Of a stretch of 64,000 bases of DNA, positions 7,273-31,613 are shown piece after piece. The notes under the pieces are model-generated. The model saw nothing but the letters and a program-made list of their open reading frames with translations. It made no database searches and was not told the origin of the DNA. Each line of letters begins with the position of its first letter. Within the stretch, counting starts at the first letter, position 1. The stretch comes from Tistrella mobilis (GTDB taxonomy: Bacteria; Pseudomonadota; Alphaproteobacteria; Tistrellales; Tistrellaceae). The stretch spans positions 1-64,000 of the forward strand of contig NZ_JBBIAB010000024.1 in NCBI RefSeq assembly GCF_039634785.1. Reading direction: 5' to 3'. The position numbers were made by a program, and so were the translations under genes.

Positions 7273-7983
7273 TCACCCCGGCAACACCGCCGCCACCTCG
7301 GGCGAAAGCGGCGCTTCCAGCGCGCCGCAGAGCGATTCGACCAGGCAGTCGAGCGCATAGGGCTTGCCCCAGAGCCCGCCGCCGGTGGGGTCGGCCTCGA
7401 AGGCGGCTTCGCGCACGGCGAGGCTGGTGTTCATGAACAGCACCATATGGGCCAGACGCTGGCTGATCACCGCGGCGGGCAGGGGGGCCATCAGCCGGCG
7501 CAGATGGTCGATGCAGCGCATATAGCTCGACCGCCAGCGATCGCCCACCGCATCCAGGAACATGGCGCGGTGGTTGATCTGCATGGCGACGATGAAGCGC
7601 ATATGGCCGAAGCCGATCGGCAGGCTGCGATGGGCGTCCGGGTCGCCGGCGCCCGTTGTCTCCACCTCTAGCAGCAGGCGGACGATATCGGCCACCCGCT
7701 CCGGGCCGCCCTCGGCCTCCATCACGTCCAGCCGGGCATTGCGGGCGCGATCGCTGCGCTGGGCCGCTTCGACCACCAGTTCGCGGATCAGCCCCTCTTT
7801 CGATCCGAAATAATAGTGGAGCGAGGCGCCGTTGCGCATGCCGGCTTCGGTGACGATGTTGCGCACCGACACCCCGTCGATGCCGCGGGTCGAGAACAGG
7901 CGCAGGGCCGCGAGCTTCAGCTTCTCGCGCGTGGGATCGGTCTGCGTGGGCTCCGCGGCGAGCGGGGCGGGTTCGGCGGACAT
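7273..7983 (-). CDS. TetR-family transcriptional regulator
   Basis: A 236-residue repressor. After an acidic, Pro/Ala-rich leader of about 18 residues comes the TetR helix-turn-helix, including LAALRLFSTRGIDGVSVRNIVTEA and the LHYYFGSKEGLIRELV recognition region. The C-terminal 170 residues form the variable ligand-binding domain. It lies 52 bp downstream of the TRAP permease genes in the same direction, so it may be co-transcribed with or control them. The ligand is probably an organic acid or related compound handled by the adjacent transporter, which is inference. Confidence 0.9.
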   Translation of the reverse strand: MSAEPAPLAAEPTQTDPTREKLKLAALRLFSTRGIDGVSVRNIVTEAGMRNGASLHYYFGSKEGLIRELVVEAAQRSDRARNARLDVMEAEGGPERVADIVRLLLEVETTGAGDPDAHRSLPIGFGHMRFIVAMQINHRAMFLDAVGDRWRSSYMRCIDHLRRLMAPLPAAVISQRLAHMVLFMNTSLAVREAAFEADPTGGGLWGKPYALDCLVESLCGALEAPLSPEVAAVLPG

Positions 7984-8035
7984 GCGCTACTCCTGGGGTC
8001 TTCCGGCGGCAGTCTACGGATCTTCCGATCATTGG

Positions 8036-9343
8036 TTATCCGAAACGGGTCGGAAGATACATGATCAATTCGGGCACCAGCATCAGCAGGGCCAGAACCG
8101 CCAGATCCATCACCAGGAACCAGAGGATGCCGCGGAAGATCGCCGAGGTCCGGACCAGATCCCCGACCACGCTTTTGATCACGAAGACATTCATGCCGAC
8201 CGGCGGGGTGATCATGCCGATTTCGAGCAGCTTGGTCAGGATCACGCCGAACCAGAGCAGGCCGAAGCCGGTGCCGTCGACGATCGGCAGCACGATCGGC
8301 AGGGTGAGCAGCATGGCGCCGACCGGTTCCAGGAACAGGCCGAGCAGCAGATACACGATCACCACCCCGGCCATGATGAGCACCGGATCGGCGCCCAGCG
8401 CCAGCACCTGTTCCGAGAGATAATCGGCTGATCCCGACAGCGCCAGGAAGCGGGTGAGCAGGGTGGCGCCGATGCCGATGATGATCAGGGTGGATGTGGT
8501 GAGCACCGTGTCGACGATGGCGGCCGAAAACCGCGCGCGGGTGAGGCTGCCCTTGGCGAGCGCGATCACCACCGCCATCAGCGCGCCGACCGCGCCCGCC
8601 TCGGTTGCGGTGAACACGCCCGAGAACAGGCCGCCGAAGATGCCGATCATCAGCAGGATCACCGGCCAGGTGTCCTTGAGCGCCGCGATCCGCTCTGCGG
8701 CGGGCGTGCGGATATCGACCTGCGGCGCCAGCGCCGGGTTCAGCTTCACCCGGATCATGATCACCAGCACATAGCCGATCGCGGTGATGACGCCCGCGGC
8801 GATGCCGCCCAGGAACAGGCCGGTGACCGGCACCTGGGCCACCACGCCATACAGGATCAGGATGATCGAAGGCGGGATCAGCGCGCCGATCGTGCCCGCC
8901 ACCGCCACCGAACCGGTGGCGAGTTCGGGATGGTAGCGCGCCTTCAGCATTTCGGGGATGGCGATCCGGCCCATGGTCGCCGAACAGGCGATGGACGAGC
9001 CGGACACCGCGGCGAAACCGGCCGAGCCCATCACGGCCGCGACCGCGAGCCCGCCCGGCACCCGTTCCAGCCAGACCCGGGCCGCCCGGAACAGGCCCTG
9101 GGTCAGCTGGCCGTGATAGCAGACGAAACCCAGCAGCAGGAACATGGGCACCGAACTCAGCACCCAGTTGGCCGCGAACTGAAAGGGCAGCAGGCCGAGC
9201 GAGCCCCAGGCGACCTTCCAGCCCATCAGCACCCAGAGCCCGCCGAAGGACACGCCGATCAGCGAGATGCCGATGGGGATGCGCAGCGCGATGAACACCA
9301 GCAGCAGGCCCAGCCCGGAGAGGCCGATCTGAACGTCGCTCAC
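8036..9343 (-). CDS. TRAP transporter large permease (DctM-like)
   Basis: A 435-residue membrane protein of the DctM family, the catalytic channel subunit of a tripartite ATP-independent periplasmic transporter driven by a sodium or proton gradient. Typical features are the repeated long hydrophobic helices and the conserved GSSIACSATMGRIAIPEMLK and IPPSIILILYGV regions. Its start overlaps the stop of the small permease gene by four bases (ATGA), so the two are translationally coupled. Together with the genes at 9340 and 9948 it makes a complete system for an unknown organic acid or ketone-related solute. Confidence 0.94.
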   Translation of the reverse strand: MSDVQIGLSGLGLLLVFIALRIPIGISLIGVSFGGLWVLMGWKVAWGSLGLLPFQFAANWVLSSVPMFLLLGFVCYHGQLTQGLFRAARVWLERVPGGLAVAAVMGSAGFAAVSGSSIACSATMGRIAIPEMLKARYHPELATGSVAVAGTIGALIPPSIILILYGVVAQVPVTGLFLGGIAAGVITAIGYVLVIMIRVKLNPALAPQVDIRTPAAERIAALKDTWPVILLMIGIFGGLFSGVFTATEAGAVGALMAVVIALAKGSLTRARFSAAIVDTVLTTSTLIIIGIGATLLTRFLALSGSADYLSEQVLALGADPVLIMAGVVIVYLLLGLFLEPVGAMLLTLPIVLPIVDGTGFGLLWFGVILTKLLEIGMITPPVGMNVFVIKSVVGDLVRTSAIFRGILWFLVMDLAVLALLMLVPELIMYLPTRFG

Positions 9344-9873
9344 AGCCCCGCCTCCCGTCCGGAGGTGGCGGCTGCCAGATCGTCGGGCCGTCGGCGCAGG
9401 AAATTGACGAAGCGGTAGATCACCAGCAGGGTCATCAATCCTGCGCCCACAGGCAGCGCGTAATAGGCCGGCCAGATCGGGATGCTGGACGAGCCCTGGA
9501 TTTGGGCGGCGCCGATCGCCTGCTGTTTCAGCGCCTCTTCAAAACCCCGCCAGGTGAGCAGGCCGGTGACCAGGCCCGTGGGCACCAGCATCCAGCCTTC
9601 GAGCATGTTGCGGCCGCGTCGGGGCAGAAGATCGGTCACGATTTCCATCGAAATATGGGCGCGGCGCAGCTCGGCGAAGGCGAGCGGCACGAAGGCGGCG
9701 ATCACCATGTAGTAATAGGTGACGACGGTGAGGGTGCCGGGCAGGGGCGCACCCAGCAGATAGCGGAAGGCGACGTCGAGCGAGACGTGCAGCATCATCA
9801 GCGCGATCGCGATGCCGGCGATGAGCGTCGCGAGCGAGGTCGTCCGCGCAAGCAGGCGGCCGGGCGTCGACAT
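9340..9873 (-). CDS. TRAP transporter small permease (DctQ-like)
   Basis: A 177-residue four-helix membrane protein of the DctQ family, which pairs with the large permease. Typical regions are the second-helix segment DVAFRYLLGAPLPGTLTVVTYY and the RRAHISMEIVTDLLPRR loop. It sits between the binding-protein gene (74-bp gap) and the large permease gene (four-base overlap), the standard order P-Q-M. Its fully hydrophobic layout and normal length give no sign of damage. Confidence 0.92.
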   Translation of the reverse strand: MSTPGRLLARTTSLATLIAGIAIALMMLHVSLDVAFRYLLGAPLPGTLTVVTYYYMVIAAFVPLAFAELRRAHISMEIVTDLLPRRGRNMLEGWMLVPTGLVTGLLTWRGFEEALKQQAIGAAQIQGSSSIPIWPAYYALPVGAGLMTLLVIYRFVNFLRRRPDDLAAATSGREAGL

Positions 9874-12678: not shown

Positions 12679-14640
12679 ATGGCCGATCACGCGAACCGGG
12701 ACGGCGCCCTTGCGGGTGCCGGCGACATTGACCAGGACGCCGCCTTTCGGGCGGCGGTGGCGATCGCCAATATCCCGACGCTGCTGATGGTGCTGGTCCA
12801 GCTGACCGGCGACACGCGCTGGCTGGAGCCGCCCTATGCGCCCGAACGCGGCCGCGGGCTGGACGACAACGATGATGGCGGCCTGCCCGAAGATGTTCAG
12901 GCGGAGATCCGCGCCGCCGCGACCGAGGCGATCCTGGCCTGGCGGGCGGGTCGGCCGGTGGCGATGCCGCGGCCCGACGACGATCTGCTGGTGCGCATGC
13001 TGAGCGTGTCGATGGCCGAAGAGGTGCCGGCGGAATATGGCGAGATCATCGCCTCGGGGCTGGGGCTGAAGGCGCACCGGCTGGGTGAGCCGGCGGCGGT
13101 GCCGGCCGGCTTCAAGGTGCTGGTGATCGGCGCCGGCGTCTCGGGCATCTGCGCCGCGATCCGTCTGCGCCAGCGCGGCATCGCCTGCGAGGTGATCGAG
13201 AAGGGCTCGGATTTCGGCGGCACCTGGCGCGAGAACCGCTATCCCGGCGCCGGGGTCGACACCCCCAACCACATCTATTCCTTCTCGTTCGCGCCGCATG
13301 ACTGGACGCGCTATTTCGCGCTGCAGGGCGAGCTTTACGGCTATTTCCGCAAGGTCGCGCGCGATCACGGGCTGGAGAGCTGCACCCGTTTCGACACCCG
13401 GGTGTTGAGCGCCGTGTGGCAGGCGGAGGCCCGGCGCTGGGCGGTGACCATCCGCCGGCCCGACGGTGCGGAAGAGGTGCTGACCGCCGATGCGGTGGTG
13501 AGTGCGGTGGGCGTGCTGAACACGCCGCTGGTGCCGCATATCCCCGGCCTCGACAGCTTCCCCGGCCCCTGTTTCCACACCGCCGAATGGCCCGAAGATC
13601 TGGATGTCGCGGGCAAGCGCGTGGCGCTGGTCGGCAATGGTGCCTCTGCCATGCAGGTGGCGCCTGCGATCGCGCCCAGGGTCGGGCAGCTCACCATCTT
13701 TGCGCGGTCGAAGCAGTGGGCGGCACCCTTCCCGCAATTCGGCAAGGAAATGCCGCAGCCGATCCGCTTCCTGATCGCGAACATGCCGCTCTATCGGTTG
13801 TGGTATCGCCAGCGTCTTGCCTGGACCTTCAACGACCGGGTCCATGGCTCGCTGCAGAAGGATCCCGCCTGGCCGCATCCGGACCGGGCGCTGAACGCGG
13901 TCAATGACGGCCATCGCCGCGCCTTCGTGAAATACATGCAGCAGGAACTGGGCGACCGGCAGGATCTGCTGGAGAAGGTGCTGCCCGACTACCCGCCCTT
14001 CGGCAAGCGCATGCTGCTCGACAATGGCTGGTACCGTACCATCGCCCGCGACAATGTCGAACTGATCACCGACCATATGGCCGAGGTGCGCGGCAGCACG
14101 CTGGTCTCGCGCGGCGGGGAGGAACGCGAGGCCGATATTCTGGTGCTGGCCACCGGGTTCAAGGCGACCGAGTTCCTGGGCTCTTACGAGGTGCGGGGCC
14201 GCCAGGGCCAGGTGCTGTCGGATGTCTGGAACGGCGATGACGCCCGGGCCTATCTGGGCACCGCCGTGCCCGGTTTCCCCAATTTCTTCATGCTGCTGGG
14301 GCCCAATGTCGGCCTTGGTCACGGCGGCAGCATCATCTCGGCGGTGGAGCTGCAATGCGACTATCTGTTGAGCGCGCTCGACGAGATGTTCCGCCGCGGC
14401 GCCGCCACGATCGAAGTGCGCGCCGAGATCCATGACGACTACAATCGCAGGGTCGACGAGGCCCATGCGAAAATGGTCTGGACCCATGAGGGCATGGAGA
14501 ACTGGTACCGCAATTCCCGCGGCCGGGTGGTGGCGATCACCCCCTGGCGCAATGACGATTTCTGGCGCATGACCCGCACGGTGGCGCCGGCGGATTACGT
14601 CTTCGACGGCCGGCCGGCCGCCGCCGGCGACGCGGCCTGA
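12679..14640 (+). CDS. Baeyer-Villiger monooxygenase (4-hydroxyacetophenone monooxygenase type)
   Basis: A 653-residue FAD- and NADPH-dependent monooxygenase that inserts oxygen next to a ketone carbonyl, giving an ester. The FAD Rossmann motif GAGVSG is at residues 151-156 and the NADPH motif GNGASA near 318. The Baeyer-Villiger fingerprint F-x-G-x-x-x-H-x-x-x-W-P is at 293-304. The extra N-terminal domain of about 140 residues and the total length match the HAPMO group rather than cyclohexanone monooxygenases. It is followed by a CoA ligase gene and divergent from an esterase-like gene, so a ketone degradation route is likely. The natural ketone is not known. Confidence 0.9.
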   Translation: MADHANRDGALAGAGDIDQDAAFRAAVAIANIPTLLMVLVQLTGDTRWLEPPYAPERGRGLDDNDDGGLPEDVQAEIRAAATEAILAWRAGRPVAMPRPDDDLLVRMLSVSMAEEVPAEYGEIIASGLGLKAHRLGEPAAVPAGFKVLVIGAGVSGICAAIRLRQRGIACEVIEKGSDFGGTWRENRYPGAGVDTPNHIYSFSFAPHDWTRYFALQGELYGYFRKVARDHGLESCTRFDTRVLSAVWQAEARRWAVTIRRPDGAEEVLTADAVVSAVGVLNTPLVPHIPGLDSFPGPCFHTAEWPEDLDVAGKRVALVGNGASAMQVAPAIAPRVGQLTIFARSKQWAAPFPQFGKEMPQPIRFLIANMPLYRLWYRQRLAWTFNDRVHGSLQKDPAWPHPDRALNAVNDGHRRAFVKYMQQELGDRQDLLEKVLPDYPPFGKRMLLDNGWYRTIARDNVELITDHMAEVRGSTLVSRGGEEREADILVLATGFKATEFLGSYEVRGRQGQVLSDVWNGDDARAYLGTAVPGFPNFFMLLGPNVGLGHGGSIISAVELQCDYLLSALDEMFRRGAATIEVRAEIHDDYNRRVDEAHAKMVWTHEGMENWYRNSRGRVVAITPWRNDDFWRMTRTVAPADYVFDGRPAAAGDAA

Positions 14641-14746: not shown

Positions 14747-16393
14747 ATGACGATCGTGGTCGAGCAGAGCCCCGAGGGTCCGGTCCATTTCGATGCGCGC
14801 ATTCCCCCGCGCGACCGGGTGGTGACCCGCGACCTTGTCGACCGGCTGGCCGTGGAGCAGCCGGACAAGGTTTTCGTGAAATTCGACGACACCGGAGAGG
14901 AATGGACCTATGCCCGCTTCCGCGAGCTGATCGTCCAGACGGCGCTGGGCCTGCAGCAGCAGGGCGTGGTGCAGGGCGCGCATGTCCTGGTCTGGATGCC
15001 CAATGGCCGCGACCAGATCCGGGTCTATTTCGCGCTCAACTATCTGGGCGCGGTCTATGTGCCGATCAACACCGCCTATCGCGGTTCGCTGCTCGCACAT
15101 GTGGTCGATCTGTCGGATGCCAGCCTGGCGATCGTGCATGCCGATCTGGTCGAGCGGCTGTTCGACGTGCCCACCGCCCGGCTGGAACGGCTGATCGTCT
15201 CGGGCGGGCGCATGCCGGAATGCCCCCTGCCGGCGGTGCGGCTGGAAGAGGCGCTGCTGCCCGAGACCGGCACGCTGACGGCGCCCGCGCGCCGGATCGA
15301 GCCCTGGGACCCGATGGCGATCATCTACACCTCGGGCACCACCGGGCCGTCCAAGGCGGTGCTGGTGTCCTATCTGCACATCTATACCAATGCCGGCCCC
15401 GATGCCTGGCCCTTCGTCACGGGCGAGGACCGCTATCTGGTCAATGCGCCGATGTTCCATATCGGCGGCATGGGGCCGATGTTCGTGATGCTGGCCCGCG
15501 GTGCCTCGTTTGCGCTGGTGGAGCGGTTCGACACCGCCACCTACTGGCAGACCGTGCGGCGCAACGGCGTCACCGTCTCGTTCCTGCTGGGGGTGATGGC
15601 GACCTTCCTGGAAAAACTGCCGCCCTCGCCCGACGACCGCAATCACGGACTCAGGCTGGTGCTGGTGGTGCCGCTGGGCGATGCGGCGGTCTTTGCCGAA
15701 CGCTTCGGGGTCGAGGTCCGCACCATCTTCAACATGACCGAGATTTCGAGCCCGATCGTCTCAGAAGCCAATCCGCCGCTGAAGGGCACCTGCGGCCGGA
15801 TGCGGCCGGGGGTGGAGGTCCGGCTGGTCGACGACAATGACTGCGAGGTGCCGGTGGGGCAGGTGGGCGAGATGATCGTCCGCACCGACCGGCCCTGGGC
15901 GATGAACAGCGGCTATTACCGCAACCCCGAGGCGACGGCCAGGGCGTGGCGCAATGGCTGGTTCCACACCGGCGACGCCTTCATCTGCGATGCCGAGGGC
16001 AACTACTTCTTCGTCGACCGGCGCAAGGATGCCATCCGCCGCCGGGGCGAGAACATCTCGTCGCTGGAGGTCGAGGCCGAGGTGACGGCCCATCCTGACG
16101 TCCGCGAGGCCGCCGTGGTCGCGGTGCCGAGCGAGATGGGCGAGGACGACGTGCTGGTCTGCGTCGCCCCGGTCGAGGGCCGGACCATCGATCCCGAAGC
16201 CCTGATCGAATTCCTGCGCCCGCGCATGGCCTATTTCATGATCCCGCGCTATGTCCGCGTGCTCGATGCTTTGCCCAAGACGCCCACGGCCAAGGTGCTG
16301 AAGCACGAACTCCGCGCCGAGGGCATCACGGCCGACGCCTGGGACCGCGAGGCGGCGGGGCTGCGGTTGAAGTCCGAGCGGTTTGCGAGTTGA
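14747..16393 (+). CDS. Acyl-CoA ligase (AMP-dependent synthetase, CaiC-like)
   Basis: A 548-residue adenylate-forming enzyme that activates a carboxylic acid to its CoA thioester with ATP. I start at 14747, where GGGAGGG is well spaced; an upstream in-frame GTG at 14717 is weaker. The P-loop-like motif YTSGTTGPSK is at about residues 195-204. The C-terminal YFFVDRRKDAIRRRGENIS hinge and the catalytic Lys in PKTPTAKVLKHEL are present. It resembles crotonobetaine/carnitine-CoA ligases. It is 106 bp downstream of the monooxygenase gene and probably in the same operon, activating the acid released from its ester product. Confidence 0.9.
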   Translation: MTIVVEQSPEGPVHFDARIPPRDRVVTRDLVDRLAVEQPDKVFVKFDDTGEEWTYARFRELIVQTALGLQQQGVVQGAHVLVWMPNGRDQIRVYFALNYLGAVYVPINTAYRGSLLAHVVDLSDASLAIVHADLVERLFDVPTARLERLIVSGGRMPECPLPAVRLEEALLPETGTLTAPARRIEPWDPMAIIYTSGTTGPSKAVLVSYLHIYTNAGPDAWPFVTGEDRYLVNAPMFHIGGMGPMFVMLARGASFALVERFDTATYWQTVRRNGVTVSFLLGVMATFLEKLPPSPDDRNHGLRLVLVVPLGDAAVFAERFGVEVRTIFNMTEISSPIVSEANPPLKGTCGRMRPGVEVRLVDDNDCEVPVGQVGEMIVRTDRPWAMNSGYYRNPEATARAWRNGWFHTGDAFICDAEGNYFFVDRRKDAIRRRGENISSLEVEAEVTAHPDVREAAVVAVPSEMGEDDVLVCVAPVEGRTIDPEALIEFLRPRMAYFMIPRYVRVLDALPKTPTAKVLKHELRAEGITADAWDREAAGLRLKSERFAS

Positions 16394-16533
16394 CGGGCCT
16401 CCGGTCGGTGCATTGAGCTGGCCAGCAGGACCGACAGGCGTGGCTGCTGATCACCCCCTCCGTTGCTCTCGCACTCCGGTCCCGGACGTGACATGATGCC
16501 GGCCGACGACATCCTCACCTCCGGGACCGCCTC

Positions 16534-28262: not shown

Positions 28263-29138
28263 ATGGCCCCGCTGATGCTCGACGGCCTCGACGACTATGC
28301 CAGCACCGGTTCGCCGCGCAAATACCGCTCCACCGCCGGCAGCCAGGAGACGGCGCCGCCCGCGCGGGTGGAGGACGCCTGGACGGCGCTGGAGCGCGAC
28401 GGCTATGTCATCCTGGAAAATCTGTTCGCACCCGACGAGGTGGCCCGGATGCGGGCGGCGGTGCTGCCGCATATGGCGCCGCGCGGCGGCCGCAACCCCT
28501 TCGAGGGGCTGAAGACCCGCCGGCTCTATGCCGTGATCGCCAAGACGCTGGCCTGCAACCCGCTGGTCGAACATCCCCTGGTGCTGGCCCTGCTCGACCG
28601 GGTGTTCGAGCCCAATTACCTGCTCTCGCAATTGCAGGTGATCGACATCCTGCCCGGAGAAGAGGCGCAGGCGCTGCATTTCGACGACAGTTTCTACAGC
28701 CTGCCGCGGCCGCGGCCGGTGCTGGGGGCGGCGACGATCATGGCGCTGGATGACTTCACGCCCCTGAACGGCGCCACCCGGGTGATCCCCGGCAGCCATC
28801 GCTGGGGCAACCGCCTGCCCACGCAGGAAGAGGCGGACGGGGCGATCCCGGTGGTGATGCCGGCGGGGTCGGTGGTGCTGTTCCTGGGCACGCTCTGGCA
28901 CAGCGGCGGCGCCAACCGCAGCGACCGCCCGCGCCTGGCGCTCACCGCCCAGTACTGCGCGCCCTGGTGCCGCCAGCAGGAGAATTTCAGCCTGTCGGTA
29001 CCGTTGCCGGTGGTGAAGCAGTGCAGCGAACATGTCCGGCGGATGCTGGGCTATTCGATCCACGCCCCTTTCATGGGCATGGTCGACGGCATGCATCCGA
29101 AGCGCCTGCTTGAAGATCTGCCGTCCGCGGGGCGCTGA
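28263..29138 (+). CDS. Phytanoyl-CoA dioxygenase-family protein
   Basis: A 291-residue non-haem Fe(II)/2-oxoglutarate oxygenase of the PhyH family, hydroxylating an unidentified small molecule. The iron ligands are His139 and Asp141 in LHFDDS and His213 in LWHSGGANRS; the downstream Arg at 222 or 224 would bind 2-oxoglutarate. An N-terminal helix (DAWTALERDGYVILENLFAPDEV) is family-typical. A strong ribosome site, GGAGGAGGAG, precedes the ATG. It is divergent from the AraC gene and followed by two small membrane-protein genes; linkage to those is uncertain. Confidence 0.88.
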   Translation: MAPLMLDGLDDYASTGSPRKYRSTAGSQETAPPARVEDAWTALERDGYVILENLFAPDEVARMRAAVLPHMAPRGGRNPFEGLKTRRLYAVIAKTLACNPLVEHPLVLALLDRVFEPNYLLSQLQVIDILPGEEAQALHFDDSFYSLPRPRPVLGAATIMALDDFTPLNGATRVIPGSHRWGNRLPTQEEADGAIPVVMPAGSVVLFLGTLWHSGGANRSDRPRLALTAQYCAPWCRQQENFSLSVPLPVVKQCSEHVRRMLGYSIHAPFMGMVDGMHPKRLLEDLPSAGR

Positions 29139-29638: not shown

Positions 29639-29974
29639 ATGCCCATGCTGGTCCGTTTCGTCGTCATGCATGCCCTGGTGGGCTTCGGGCTCGCCTTCGC
29701 CGTGGTCGGCGCCCTGCTCTGGTTCGACGTTTCGGGCCTGGGCACGCTGATGAGCACCAATGCCGACGGGCCGTTGGCCGCGGCGGTGCTGACCTTCTTC
29801 ATGGGGCTGACGCTGGGCAGCGTTCAGGTCGCCTTCGCGGTCTGGTTCCAGGCCGGCGACGACCATGGCGGCTCGGGCGGCAGGCGCATCCGCATCCCGC
29901 AGATCTTCCTGCCGCCGCGGCGGGCGGTTGCCCATGCGCCCGTACCCGCGCGTACGACCGGCGGACGGGCCTGA
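29639..29974 (+). CDS. Small two-helix membrane protein (tandem pair, second)
   Basis: A 111-residue membrane protein paralogous to its neighbour. Helix 1 is FVVMHALVGFGLAFAVVGALLW and helix 2 contains VLTFFMGLTLGSVQVAFAVW; a basic Pro/Arg-rich tail follows. I start it at 29639, about ten bases after AAGGGGAG; an in-frame ATG at 29588 would add 17 hydrophilic residues. The tail sequence, from IPQIFLPPRR to the stop codon, is repeated as an orphan fragment at 30592-30666, showing that this gene's 3' end was caught in the duplication of the adjacent module. Confidence 0.7.
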   Translation: MPMLVRFVVMHALVGFGLAFAVVGALLWFDVSGLGTLMSTNADGPLAAAVLTFFMGLTLGSVQVAFAVWFQAGDDHGGSGGRRIRIPQIFLPPRRAVAHAPVPARTTGGRA

Positions 29975-29977
29975 TCG

Positions 29978-30136
29978 TCAGGATACGAAGACGCCGCCGT
30001 CATCCGTGGAAGCCGGCGCAGCGAGCGTCGACGACGGCAGATCGTCGATCATCAGCTGCGGGCGCCGCCAGACGGCGCGCGGCATTGCGGTGGTGTCGGA
30101 TGTCTCGGCGCCGGAGACCGGGTGACTCTGCTGCAT
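29978..30136 (-). CDS. 52-residue peptide A (candidate RiPP-like precursor)
   Basis: A 52-residue peptide aligning without gaps to peptide B at 30670-30828: 26 identical positions. Conserved are the start MQ, H5, VSG (7-9), R20-A21, W23, RPQL (25-28), IDD (30-32), S35, T37, A40-P41, T44, D46-G47 and the terminal V-S. The W-x-x-P-Q-L spacing equals the Y-x-x-P-x-L of leader peptides recognised by PqqD-like domains, for example lasso peptide precursors; T37 lies close to their penultimate Thr. The putative core after it contains Asp45-Asp46. The ribosome site is weak. No maturation enzymes are adjacent, so the RiPP reading is inference; conserved coding is directly supported. Confidence 0.6.
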   Translation of the reverse strand: MQQSHPVSGAETSDTTAMPRAVWRRPQLMIDDLPSSTLAAPASTDDGGVFVS

Positions 30137-30220
30137 GGCGCGTGGCCTGTCGTACTTTAAAGTTGAGGGCGAAAGTGCCCGACAGAAGTCTACAACAGGC
30201 ACTGCATTTGGCGCCATATC

Positions 30221-30541
30221 TCAGTCTCGCGGATCAAGGTTATGCCGCACGATTATTGACGAGGGCCAGATACGCATCAGGCCGTCGGCCAATGCCGCGC
30301 CCGCCGCGGCCAGCGCGGTGTCGGGCATGCTGCCCAAAGCTTCGAGGATGAACCAGAGTCGGCGCGAGTCCGCGGTCAGGCGGGTGCGCAGCCCCTGGCG
30401 CCAGTTCCAGCGCCGGCAGGTGACGCCGGCCTCGTCGCACCAGACCACCTCGCCCGGGTCGGGTGTTTCGATCGCCGGAGCACCGTCGCGAATGACGCGG
30501 TTGCGCAGGGCTTCTGCCGATGATGGGGTAAGGGCCTGCAC
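30221..30541 (-). pseudogene. Truncated, internally deleted copy of the B3/B4-domain gene
   Basis: A decayed duplicate of the gene at 30906-31613. The C-terminal 85 residues are almost identical to the intact copy (for example the VTCRRWNWRQGLRTRLTADS region). About 60 codons are missing: the text runs directly from VIRDG to APAIETP, joined across a short repeated G-A-rich sequence. The 5' part beyond roughly 30570 is also gone, ending near the duplication junction. An open frame starting at GTG 30541 remains but lacks the N-terminal half of the domain, so function is unlikely. Confidence 0.8.
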
Positions 30542-30591
30542 CTTCCAGGCCGTCGACGGCCACGCCCGCCCGCGCGGCGGGCGAATCTACT

Positions 30592-30666
30592 ATCCCGCAG
30601 ATCTTCCTGCCGCCACGCCGGGCGGTCGCGCCAGTGCCCGTCCGTGTGACGGGCGGACGGGTCTGA
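30592..30666 (+). pseudogene. Orphan 3' end of the small membrane protein gene (duplication scar)
   Basis: Translating in frame gives IPQIFLPPRRAVAPVPVRVTG and a stop codon, matching the last 24 codons of the gene ending at 29974. The first 23 bases are identical to 29894-29916. There is no upstream coding part. This marks the left edge of the second unit of a tandem duplication with a period of about 698 bp at this point. Confidence 0.8.
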
Positions 30667-30669
30667 CCG

Positions 30670-30828
30670 TCAGGACACCTCGATATCGCCATCTTGCGTG
30701 GCAGAAGGCGCGAGCTGCGTGAATGACGCGACATCGTCGATCACCAGCTGAGGGCGCGACCAGATGGCACGCTGTATCAGAATGGTGGCAGGGTTCTTGA
30801 TACCAGAGACGATGTGATTCGTCTGCAT
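30670..30828 (-). CDS. 52-residue peptide B (candidate RiPP-like precursor)
   Basis: The paralogue of peptide A, same length, with the conserved W23-x-R-P-Q-L, I-D-D and T37 positions described there. The N-terminal part MQTNHIVSGIKNPATILIQR would be the leader start; the C-terminal part from A40 (APSATQDGDIEVS) keeps Asp46 and the V-S end. The ribosome site AGAGAGG nine bases upstream is good, better than in copy A. It is 77 bp downstream of the intact B3/B4-domain gene in the same direction and likely co-transcribed with it. Function is unknown; a regulatory or structural small protein is also possible. Confidence 0.65.
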   Translation of the reverse strand: MQTNHIVSGIKNPATILIQRAIWSRPQLVIDDVASFTQLAPSATQDGDIEVS

Positions 30829-30905
30829 GATGTCAGACCTCTCTTGTTTCAGGGGCGGTGAACGCTTTCCGAGGCATACCATATGCAGTGTGTCAGAGGC
30901 GAGGC

Positions 30906-31613
30906 TCAGGCGCGCTGATCAATGGTGTGTTGCACGAATATTGCTGATGGCCAGATACGCGTCACGCCGTCAGCCAACGCCGCGCCCGCCGCCGCCAGCG
31001 CGGTGTCGGGCATGCTGCCCAGGGCCTCCAGGATGAACCAGAGCCGGCGCGAGTCCGCGGTCAGGCGGGTGCGCAGCCCCTGGCGCCAGTTCCAGCGCCG
31101 GCAGGTGACGCCGGCCTCGTCGCACCAGACCACCTCGCCCGGATCAGGTGTTTCGATCGCCGGGGCACCGTCTTTCATCACGTCGAACGGCTCGGTGCCG
31201 CTGGCGCGGATCAGGCGGGGGGCGCCCCGATAGGCCTCCAGATCCTCGCCGCCCACGGGGATGGCGAAGGCCAGGCTGACGGCGTTATAGAGGTCGACCA
31301 CCAGCCCGGCCGGGGGCAGGGCGCCGTCCCGGATGGCGCGCTTGCGCAGGGCTTCCGCCGATGACGGGGTGCGGGCGGGTTTGGCGCCGAAGGCCCGGAA
31401 GGCCGTCCGCCAGTCGTCGAGATGCGCCGCCGCCCAGTCCGGCCCGCCGGCCTGAACCTGGCCGATGGCCCGGGCCAGGGTCTCGGCCACGATCGCATCC
31501 GCATCGGCCACCGCCGGTCCTGCGAGGGTGACGGTCAGGCTGACGGCCCGGAAATCCGGACGCAGGGCGTGGATGGCGGGGTCGATCACGGGGGTGACGG
31601 GCTGGGCGGACAT
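30906..31613 (-). CDS. Stand-alone B3/B4-domain protein (PheRS beta-like)
   Basis: A 235-residue protein of the COG3382 type, related to the B3/B4 tRNA-recognition and editing region of phenylalanyl-tRNA synthetase beta chains. Recognisable segments are AFRAFGAKPARTPSSAEALRKR, VVDLYNAVSLAFAIPVGGED, PGEVVWCDEAGVTCRRWNWRQ and the final helical region. Proposed roles for such stand-alone forms include trans-editing of mischarged tRNA or nucleic-acid binding, but none is established for this branch. It is followed by peptide B; a decayed second copy lies at 30221-30541. Confidence 0.85.
   Translation of the reverse strand: MSAQPVTPVIDPAIHALRPDFRAVSLTVTLAGPAVADADAIVAETLARAIGQVQAGGPDWAAAHLDDWRTAFRAFGAKPARTPSSAEALRKRAIRDGALPPAGLVVDLYNAVSLAFAIPVGGEDLEAYRGAPRLIRASGTEPFDVMKDGAPAIETPDPGEVVWCDEAGVTCRRWNWRQGLRTRLTADSRRLWFILEALGSMPDTALAAAGAALADGVTRIWPSAIFVQHTIDQRA

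Follow-up and report, generated by a model that had tools for sequence, protein, structure and literature searches.

Gene clusters are the usual starting point of lasso genome mining. Discrete lasso RREs bind the motif [Y/W]xxPx[L/V/I/F/A], the tryptophan of which is nearly invariant in the paeninodin-like precursors of Bacillota (PMC13381572, in part). The residue at position -2 is usually threonine and an Asp8 ring has been described (PMC10368454, in part); the conserved C-terminal serine is phosphorylated by kinases of the HprK-like type (PMC9266682, in part).

The window analyzed here, a stretch of 64,000 nucleotides of Tistrella mobilis DNA, encodes two short peptides, A and B, which probably are orphan precursors of paeninodin-like lasso-type (macrolactam) RiPPs that would be matured in trans. 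The basis of this assignment at the sequence level is a W-x-R-P-Q-L leader, a threonine located 14 residues later, and a C-terminal segment of 14 residues with aspartate at position 8 and serine at the end, an anatomy which is also that of the precursors found beside PqqD and/or cyclase genes in Tistrella.

Peptides A and B and their locus

The locus is composed of the following features.

29639..29974, plus strand: convergent gene coding for 111 aa, annotated in T. mobilis as a hypothetical protein, which flanks the duplicated unit
29978..30136, minus strand: peptide A gene, putative orphan lasso-type precursor, 52 aa plus stop
29981..30022, minus strand: predicted core of A, AAPASTDDGGVFVS, from the geometry common to the precursors of the genus
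30053..30070, minus strand: W23-R-R-P26-Q-L28 of A, putative RRE-binding leader segment, from the sequence and the motif of PMC13381572 (in part)
30221..30541, minus strand: second copy of the B3/4 gene, a remnant with internal deletion, from tandem duplication
30543..30666, plus strand: 3'-end remnant of a duplicate of the convergent 111-aa gene (repeats D3, D4)
30670..30828, minus strand: peptide B gene, putative orphan lasso-type precursor, diverged paralogue, 52 aa plus stop
30673..30714, minus strand: predicted core of B, LAPSATQDGDIEVS, from the same geometry
30745..30762, minus strand: W23-S-R-P26-Q-L28 of B, putative RRE-binding leader segment, from the sequence and the motif of PMC13381572 (in part)
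30838..30845, minus strand: Shine-Dalgarno-like run AAGAGAGG 5' of the ATG of B, from the sequence
30906..31613, minus strand: intact gene of a B3/4-domain protein; T. mobilis KA081020-065 and the sister species likewise have it 5' of their peptide gene(s)

Both ORFs were recovered at the positions given in the initial annotation, though on the minus strand, the plus strand of B being interrupted by a stop; their gapless alignment gives 26/52 identical residues, as that annotation had described. The residues W23-x-x-P26-Q-L28, A40, and D46, to which it had drawn attention, are identical in the alignment, as is T37. The predicted cores are parsed as AAPASTD-D8-GGVFVS for A and LAPSATQ-D8-GDIEVS for B; in either case Thr37 is found at position -2, an acid at core 8 (in A also at core 7), and serine at the C-terminus. 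On inspection of the region upstream of A, no run as good as that preceding B was found. With B as query against the entire genome (E up to 10), the only matches were B itself and A (1.1e-10). Neither peptide matched a curated family (NCBIfam at E up to 10, Pfam at E up to 1), and the Rfam scan of the window at gathering thresholds gave no matches.

Homologues beyond the locus, on which the initial annotation had made its reading depend, were looked for and found in two further Tistrella genomes, so that chance ORFs are excluded. T. mobilis KA081020-065, which belongs to the same species as the window genome, carries two tandem family members (copies 1 and 2, here also Tm1 and Tm2; annotated as hypothetical proteins under WP_187297863.1 and WP_014753259.1) on plasmid pTM2, directly after a B3/4-domain gene. 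The sister species has a single member at the corresponding site (49/52 residues identical to A; 52% to B). Invariant in all five members are M1, Q2, H5, V7, S8, R20, W23, R25, P26, Q27, L28, D31, D32, T37, and the terminal serine, which is a candidate kinase site. All five agree with the RRE-binding motif through W23-x-R-P26-Q-L28, and with the predicted cleavage site the acid is located at core 8 in A, B, the sister copy, and Tm2 and at core 9 in Tm1. A search of 58 relatives with B (E up to 1) gave matches in 18, those below 0.08 being confined to the window genome and the sister species; the matches in the remaining relatives, none below 0.08, were read as chance. With a three-sequence profile, two loci were found among GTDB contigs, one in T. 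mobilis and one on an Alistipes fragment, the latter being dropped as a homologue because the match is short (21 residues) and chance-like. A search of plasmid records with the peptide matched a single record, from Tistrella.

A and B had initially been taken for selected coding sequences. Nei-Gojobori dN/dS values of 0.67 for A versus B and of 0.53 for A versus the sister-species copy (three non-synonymous and two synonymous changes) retain the purifying direction of that claim but are not clearly below 1, with few sites in either comparison; as proof of selection, dN/dS was dropped because of this small number of sites.

Read along the minus strand, the order is complete B3/4 gene, B, 3'-end remnant of the convergent gene, B3/4 remnant, and A, as delimited by the repeats D1, D3, and D4. 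Both B3/4 copies have a Pfam B3_4 match, which in the remnant does not reach the Pfam cut-off. A role of the B3/4 gene as functional partner of the peptides is unsupported, homologues of this gene being found in many plasmid records that lack the peptide. A PhyH-type 2OG oxygenase gene (window 28263-29138) is located near the peptides also in KA081020-065 and, judged by its ORF, in the sister species; it could be a candidate tailoring enzyme.

Peptide A is a hybrid of the KA081020-065 copies, with a 5' half like copy 1 and a 3' half like copy 2. At the sites discriminating the copies, it follows copy 1 at 17/18 before base 57 and copy 2 at 22/28 thereafter (Fisher p 1.7e-6; of the breakpoints tried, 57, 66, and 84, the second and third yield p values for A of 3e-6 and 4e-6). 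The sister-species copy is likewise a hybrid (copy 1 at 18/19, then copy 2 at 23/30; p 8e-7), and a weaker trend of the same sign is seen in B (p 0.004-0.009). The site is thus occupied by two tandem precursors in KA081020-065, by a diverged pair including a hybrid in the window strain, and by a single hybrid in the sister species. The switch point adjoins the codons for R20-x-x-W-x-R-P-Q-L, and recombination at this place would therefore swap the cores and retain the recognition element. It appears that the hybrids arose by recombination between tandem copies and that the locus evolves by tandem duplication plus recombination at the recognition segment, by which different cores would be placed behind one type of leader. 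If true, the A/B locus would be a natural experiment in core shuffling.

Precursor geometry in the genus

Tistrella genomes contain many short precursors of A/B-like anatomy, that is, W-x-x-P-x-L, threonine 13-14 residues later, a core starting at Thr+2, Asp or Glu usually at core 8, and a C-terminal serine. Several PqqD and/or cyclase genes are adjoined by short W-x-x-P-x-L ORFs, and a profile was built from nine precursors in such positions, with A and B excluded. It was run against 3,702 sequences, namely 3,697 ORFs, taken from the window and from most of the loci retrieved, and five ATG-trimmed peptides of the A/B family; the loose motif is found in 183 of these sequences and W-x-x-P-x-L in 38. 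The trimmed peptides were matched at E-values of 5e-9 (A), 2.5e-8 (sister copy), 8e-6 (B), 1e-4 (Tm2), and 7e-3 (Tm1), and the untrimmed window ORFs at 1.6e-8 (A) and 1.5e-5 (B). In the ranking, the nine source precursors are followed by A, the sister copy, further precursors, B, and, lower, the KA081020-065 copies, while the best ORF outside the precursor set has an E-value of 0.17. Two W-x-x-P-x-L peptides, L105 and L106, are also counted as precursors; they conform to the geometry, with profile E-values of only 1.5 and 4.6. When a sister-species precursor (L102) was used as lone query, its best matches in the window were A (0.001) and B (0.01).

For the geometry, a threonine 13-16 residues past W/Y was sought and the core was begun two residues on. 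Among 25 precursors, including the five A/B-family members and one from Azospirillum, an acid is present at core 8 in 19 (shuffle mean 2.8; 0/20,000 shuffles as high) and at core 7-9 in 23, and a C-terminal serine in 24, the 25 rows being not all independent because some are orthologues of one another. If the A/B family is left out, the acid is found at core 8 in 15/20 and at core 7-9 in 18/20. The geometry is broken by L112b (no acid at 7-9, Trp end), by the sister-species precursor G001_C4_3371k (acid at 10), and by the Azospirillum precursor (acid at 7). A wider profile (A4, 17 rows) finds more precursors. In 16 of 17 further loci, retrieved from the stronger matches and with a readable motif ORF, at least five of which are orthologues of set members, an acid at 8 or 9 is combined with a terminal serine, a check that is not fully independent because profile A4 itself holds geometry columns; one of the 17 (L148) is without threonine at the expected spacing. 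At L131, L144, and L150, the scripted search recovered no precursor frame. A regular expression for the full rule, partly tuned on the precursor set on which it was scored, retrieved 16 of 4,275 ORFs, all of them in that set (five from the A/B family), and none of 5,267 ORFs from reversed sequences.

These results bear out the leader and the lasso-type anatomy of the initial annotation, both of which match the Tistrella precursor profile, but not its placement of the ring. With Thr37 at position -2, the rule followed by the other precursors lets the core begin at residue 39, and the seven-residue ring from Ala40 to Asp46 is therefore replaced by a predicted eight-residue ring, Xaa39-Asp46. Threonine 14 residues after the tryptophan had been seen as a departure from a classic spacing of 15; for Tistrella precursors, +13/+14 is usual.

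Candidate maturation enzymes and proposed pathway

On the 72-kb contig of the window, PqqD, Transglut_core3, and Asn_synthase gave no matches over cut-off, in agreement with the initial annotation, and A and B are not clustered with B1, B2, or C, none of which is present on that contig. The search within the same genome that the annotation had suggested located RRE-type PqqD proteins, cyclase-like proteins, and one leader peptidase B2, all encoded off the A/B contig. A and B would therefore represent an orphan lasso (paeninodin-like) precursor family; of the new RiPP precursor family envisaged at the outset, the orphan family is retained, and the RiPP class as such would not be entirely new.

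The Pfam cut-off is exceeded by seven PqqD-type proteins in the window genome, seven in the sister species, and ten in KA081020-065; in each of the first two, one PqqD gene adjoins a putative pqqA, as judged by reading. Two PqqD proteins compared with NCBIfam were below the curated cut-off (best 51.6 of 80 bits). For one Tistrella PqqD, the closest solved chains in the PDB are 9x90 ('Lasso peptide biosynthesis PqqD family chaperone') and TbiB1 (5v1u). The cyclase-like proteins are over the Pfam Asn_synthase cut-off and below that of the NCBIfam lasso cyclase, six of them (four from the window genome, two from the sister species) reaching 92-252 of 525 bits; the lasso cyclase is the best NCBIfam model for five and the second best for the sixth (L081). 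One cyclase-like protein was not supported as lasso cyclase by the PDB, where its best match is a hydroxyamidotransferase, followed by beta-lactam synthetase. HprK-like genes are weak matches below the curated cut-off (best 44.7 of 200 bits), several of which, by position, lie near precursors or PqqD genes.

The lasso B2 protein exceeds the curated NCBIfam cut-off (73.6 versus 33 bits) and occurs once per Tistrella genome, with a second, weak match below cut-off in the sister species. Cys and His are found in like contexts in four aligned rows; PDB sequences gave no match to B2, and no PqqD or Asn_synthase match lies beside its gene. In the sister species and KA081020-065, both well assembled, B2 and the A/B family share a replicon at a distance of ~81 kb and ~85 kb, respectively. 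In the sister species, this replicon also carries a PqqD/cyclase pair; in KA081020-065, no PqqD gene was found on it at E up to 0.001. As a guess, A and B might be served by the C17-type PqqD/cyclase pair, which is apparently present in all three genomes.

The proposed pathway would start with a PqqD-type RRE protein, which would bind the W-x-x-P-x-L segment and, acting in trans, present the precursor to the single B2. This peptidase would cut A and B after residue 38, whereupon an asparagine-synthetase-like cyclase would link the side chain of Asp46 to the residue-39 amino group. The predicted product would have an eight-residue ring and a six-residue tail, GGVFVS in A and GDIEVS in B. Phosphorylation of the C-terminal serine by an HprK-like kinase would be possible. 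This order of steps is put forward for both peptides.

Several observations stand against a lasso product. The first core residue in the family is Ala, Leu, or Phe, not Gly; tails of six residues offer little bulk for holding the thread; Tm1 is matched weakly by the profile, and some precursors of the set depart from the geometry; A and B have no RRE, cyclase, or B2 in their vicinity, and the enzyme matches other than B2 are below curated cut-offs. The short tails also speak for RRE-dependent RiPP precursors of a non-lasso kind, which would be processed by another tailoring enzyme to a linear product or an unthreaded macrolactam, with the HprK-like kinase, a TylF-like methyltransferase, a sulfotransferase, or a 2OG oxygenase as candidate partners. 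In Tistrella, one PqqD gene that has no cyclase-like match in its vicinity adjoins a TylF-type methyltransferase gene (C2:429329) and an HprK-like gene, and the PqqD/HprK system of Bacilli (LPP), the leader of which is lasso-like, yields linear phosphorylated intermediates (PMC13381572, in part). However, the acid at core 8/9 and threonine at -2 are common to the precursors beside cyclase-like genes, and linear products would need neither, which makes this reading rather unlikely.

That A and B are decaying relics, non-functional copies at a locus once tied to a maturation set, would accord with the B3/4 and convergent-gene remnants between them and with dN/dS values not far below 1. Both frames are open, though, the family is conserved in two species, and W, R25-P-Q-L, T37, and the terminal serine are invariant in 5/5 members, with the acid kept at core 8 or 9; decay is accordingly considered improbable. 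It would be more surprising still if the peptides were an unmodified small-protein family with another role, for instance together with the B3/4-domain protein, whose likeness to RiPP leaders would be convergence. The B3/4 gene precedes the peptides by ~80 bp on the same strand in all three Tistrella genomes, but B3/4 genes have matches in 139 plasmid records of many genera as against the one Tistrella record for the peptide, and A and B match the profile of cluster-linked precursors. The assignment as orphan lasso-type precursors is thus preferred.

Dispersed precursors and comparison with known systems

In a class-wide profile search (E up to 1e-4; up to 23 candidates scored per genome), at least 5 of 289 genomes were matched, three of them Tistrella, which leaves at least 2 of the 286 other alphaproteobacterial genomes. 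At this threshold, there are at least 16 matches in the window genome, at least 11 in the sister species, and at least 11 in KA081020-065. Among the matches listed, 5/16, 3/11, and 1/11, respectively, are within 10 kb of PqqD on the same contig, as counted with circular wrap ignored and on 62 contigs for the window genome. With PqqD or Asn_synthase nearby, the counts among the matches listed are 6/16, 5/11, and at least 2/11, the family-wide cyclase search having covered the first two genomes. Some precursors thus lie beside an Asn_synthase match instead of PqqD, which argues against complete dispersal. Since few precursors are near PqqD, most of them, if matured, would need a distant RRE, and removal of the leader would depend on one B2. 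It is possible, if not quite probable, that a dispersed, prochlorosin-like combinatorial system exists, in which one megaplasmid-borne B2 serves at least 12 precursors on several replicons, RREs and cyclases act in trans, and A/B-like loci swap cores at the RRE-binding segment. If so, the entire precursor repertoire could be probed together by knocking out one B2 gene; and if maturation in trans by one leader peptidase is routine, such precursors are overlooked by cluster-based mining.

Orphan precursors also occur in neighbouring groups of about three, at G000:C6:52600-53697 and G000:C2:339888-347636 in the window genome and at G001:C4:942130-942995 in the sister species. The first and the last of these are within ~2 kb of an HprK-like match, and the last has, in addition, a sulfotransferase-like ORF close by, as judged by reading and unscored. 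A lasso-type locus of the window genome (L080, G000:C13) contains three precursors (7872-8126, 13343-13597, and 14925-15101) and an unusual tailoring set, with a TP_methylase (tetrapyrrole-methylase-family) gene at 8608-9657, PqqD, a cyclase-like gene, and two 2OG-oxygenase-like proteins. At L098, L099, L083, L094, and L117, in two genera, precursors are near small proteins that by eye resemble phage tail-collar proteins; these are annotated 'tail fiber protein' in Azospirillum oryzae, and two that were tested had no NCBIfam match. In the sister species (L102:1462-3002), a precursor and a transposase-like ORF share a 1.5-kb segment that is missing at window 16394-16465; an orthologue of this precursor at ~16.4 kb of the window is absent together with the whole segment, which suggests that precursors are gained or lost by mobility. 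G093, an alphaproteobacterium from a different family, has 18 matches of PqqD type and three B2 proteins that exceed the cut-off, and is a candidate for a second lineage possessing a large system.

Summarizing, the kind of precursor is a known one. Paeninodin-like lasso peptides share with A and B the WxxPxL leader, threonine at -2, an acid at core 8, and the C-terminal serine, and their systems share with the Tistrella genome the presence of PqqD, B2, cyclase-like, and HprK-like genes. In contrast to them, A and B are unclustered with the enzymes, and their cores begin with Ala, Leu, or Phe, comprise 14-15 residues, and have short tails. The lasso-type locus of Azospirillum oryzae NZ_CP054615.1 resembles the present case in a precursor-like ORF with W-H-K-P-A-L and a serine end; it includes PqqD, a B2 over cut-off, and cyclase-like, HprK-like, and tail-fibre-like genes but forms a single cluster and, by the same rule, has its acid at position 7. 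The caulosegnins of Caulobacter segnis are similar in that three precursors share one enzyme set giving rings of 8-9 residues, yet those precursors lie inside one cluster (PMC13352647, in part). For the genus-wide scatter around a single B2, with core exchange at the recognition segment, no description was found in open-access titles and the starts of abstracts. These likewise held no Tistrella lasso peptides or unclustered lasso precursors, some review texts naming both 'lasso peptide' and 'Tistrella'; the subscription literature was largely outside this search. A leader protease encoded away from its precursors is known from lanthipeptides with unclustered protease genes, which are lanthipeptides and not lasso peptides (PMC8960859, in part). 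The closest working analogue of the dispersed Tistrella precursors may be seen in the prochlorosin system (ProcM/ProcA) of marine picocyanobacteria, in which many scattered precursors are likewise served by one promiscuous enzyme (PMC10783134, in part). Prochlorosins differ in their lanthipeptide chemistry and LanM synthetase, whereas Tistrella would combine lasso-type enzymes, with several RREs and cyclase-like proteins, around one B2.
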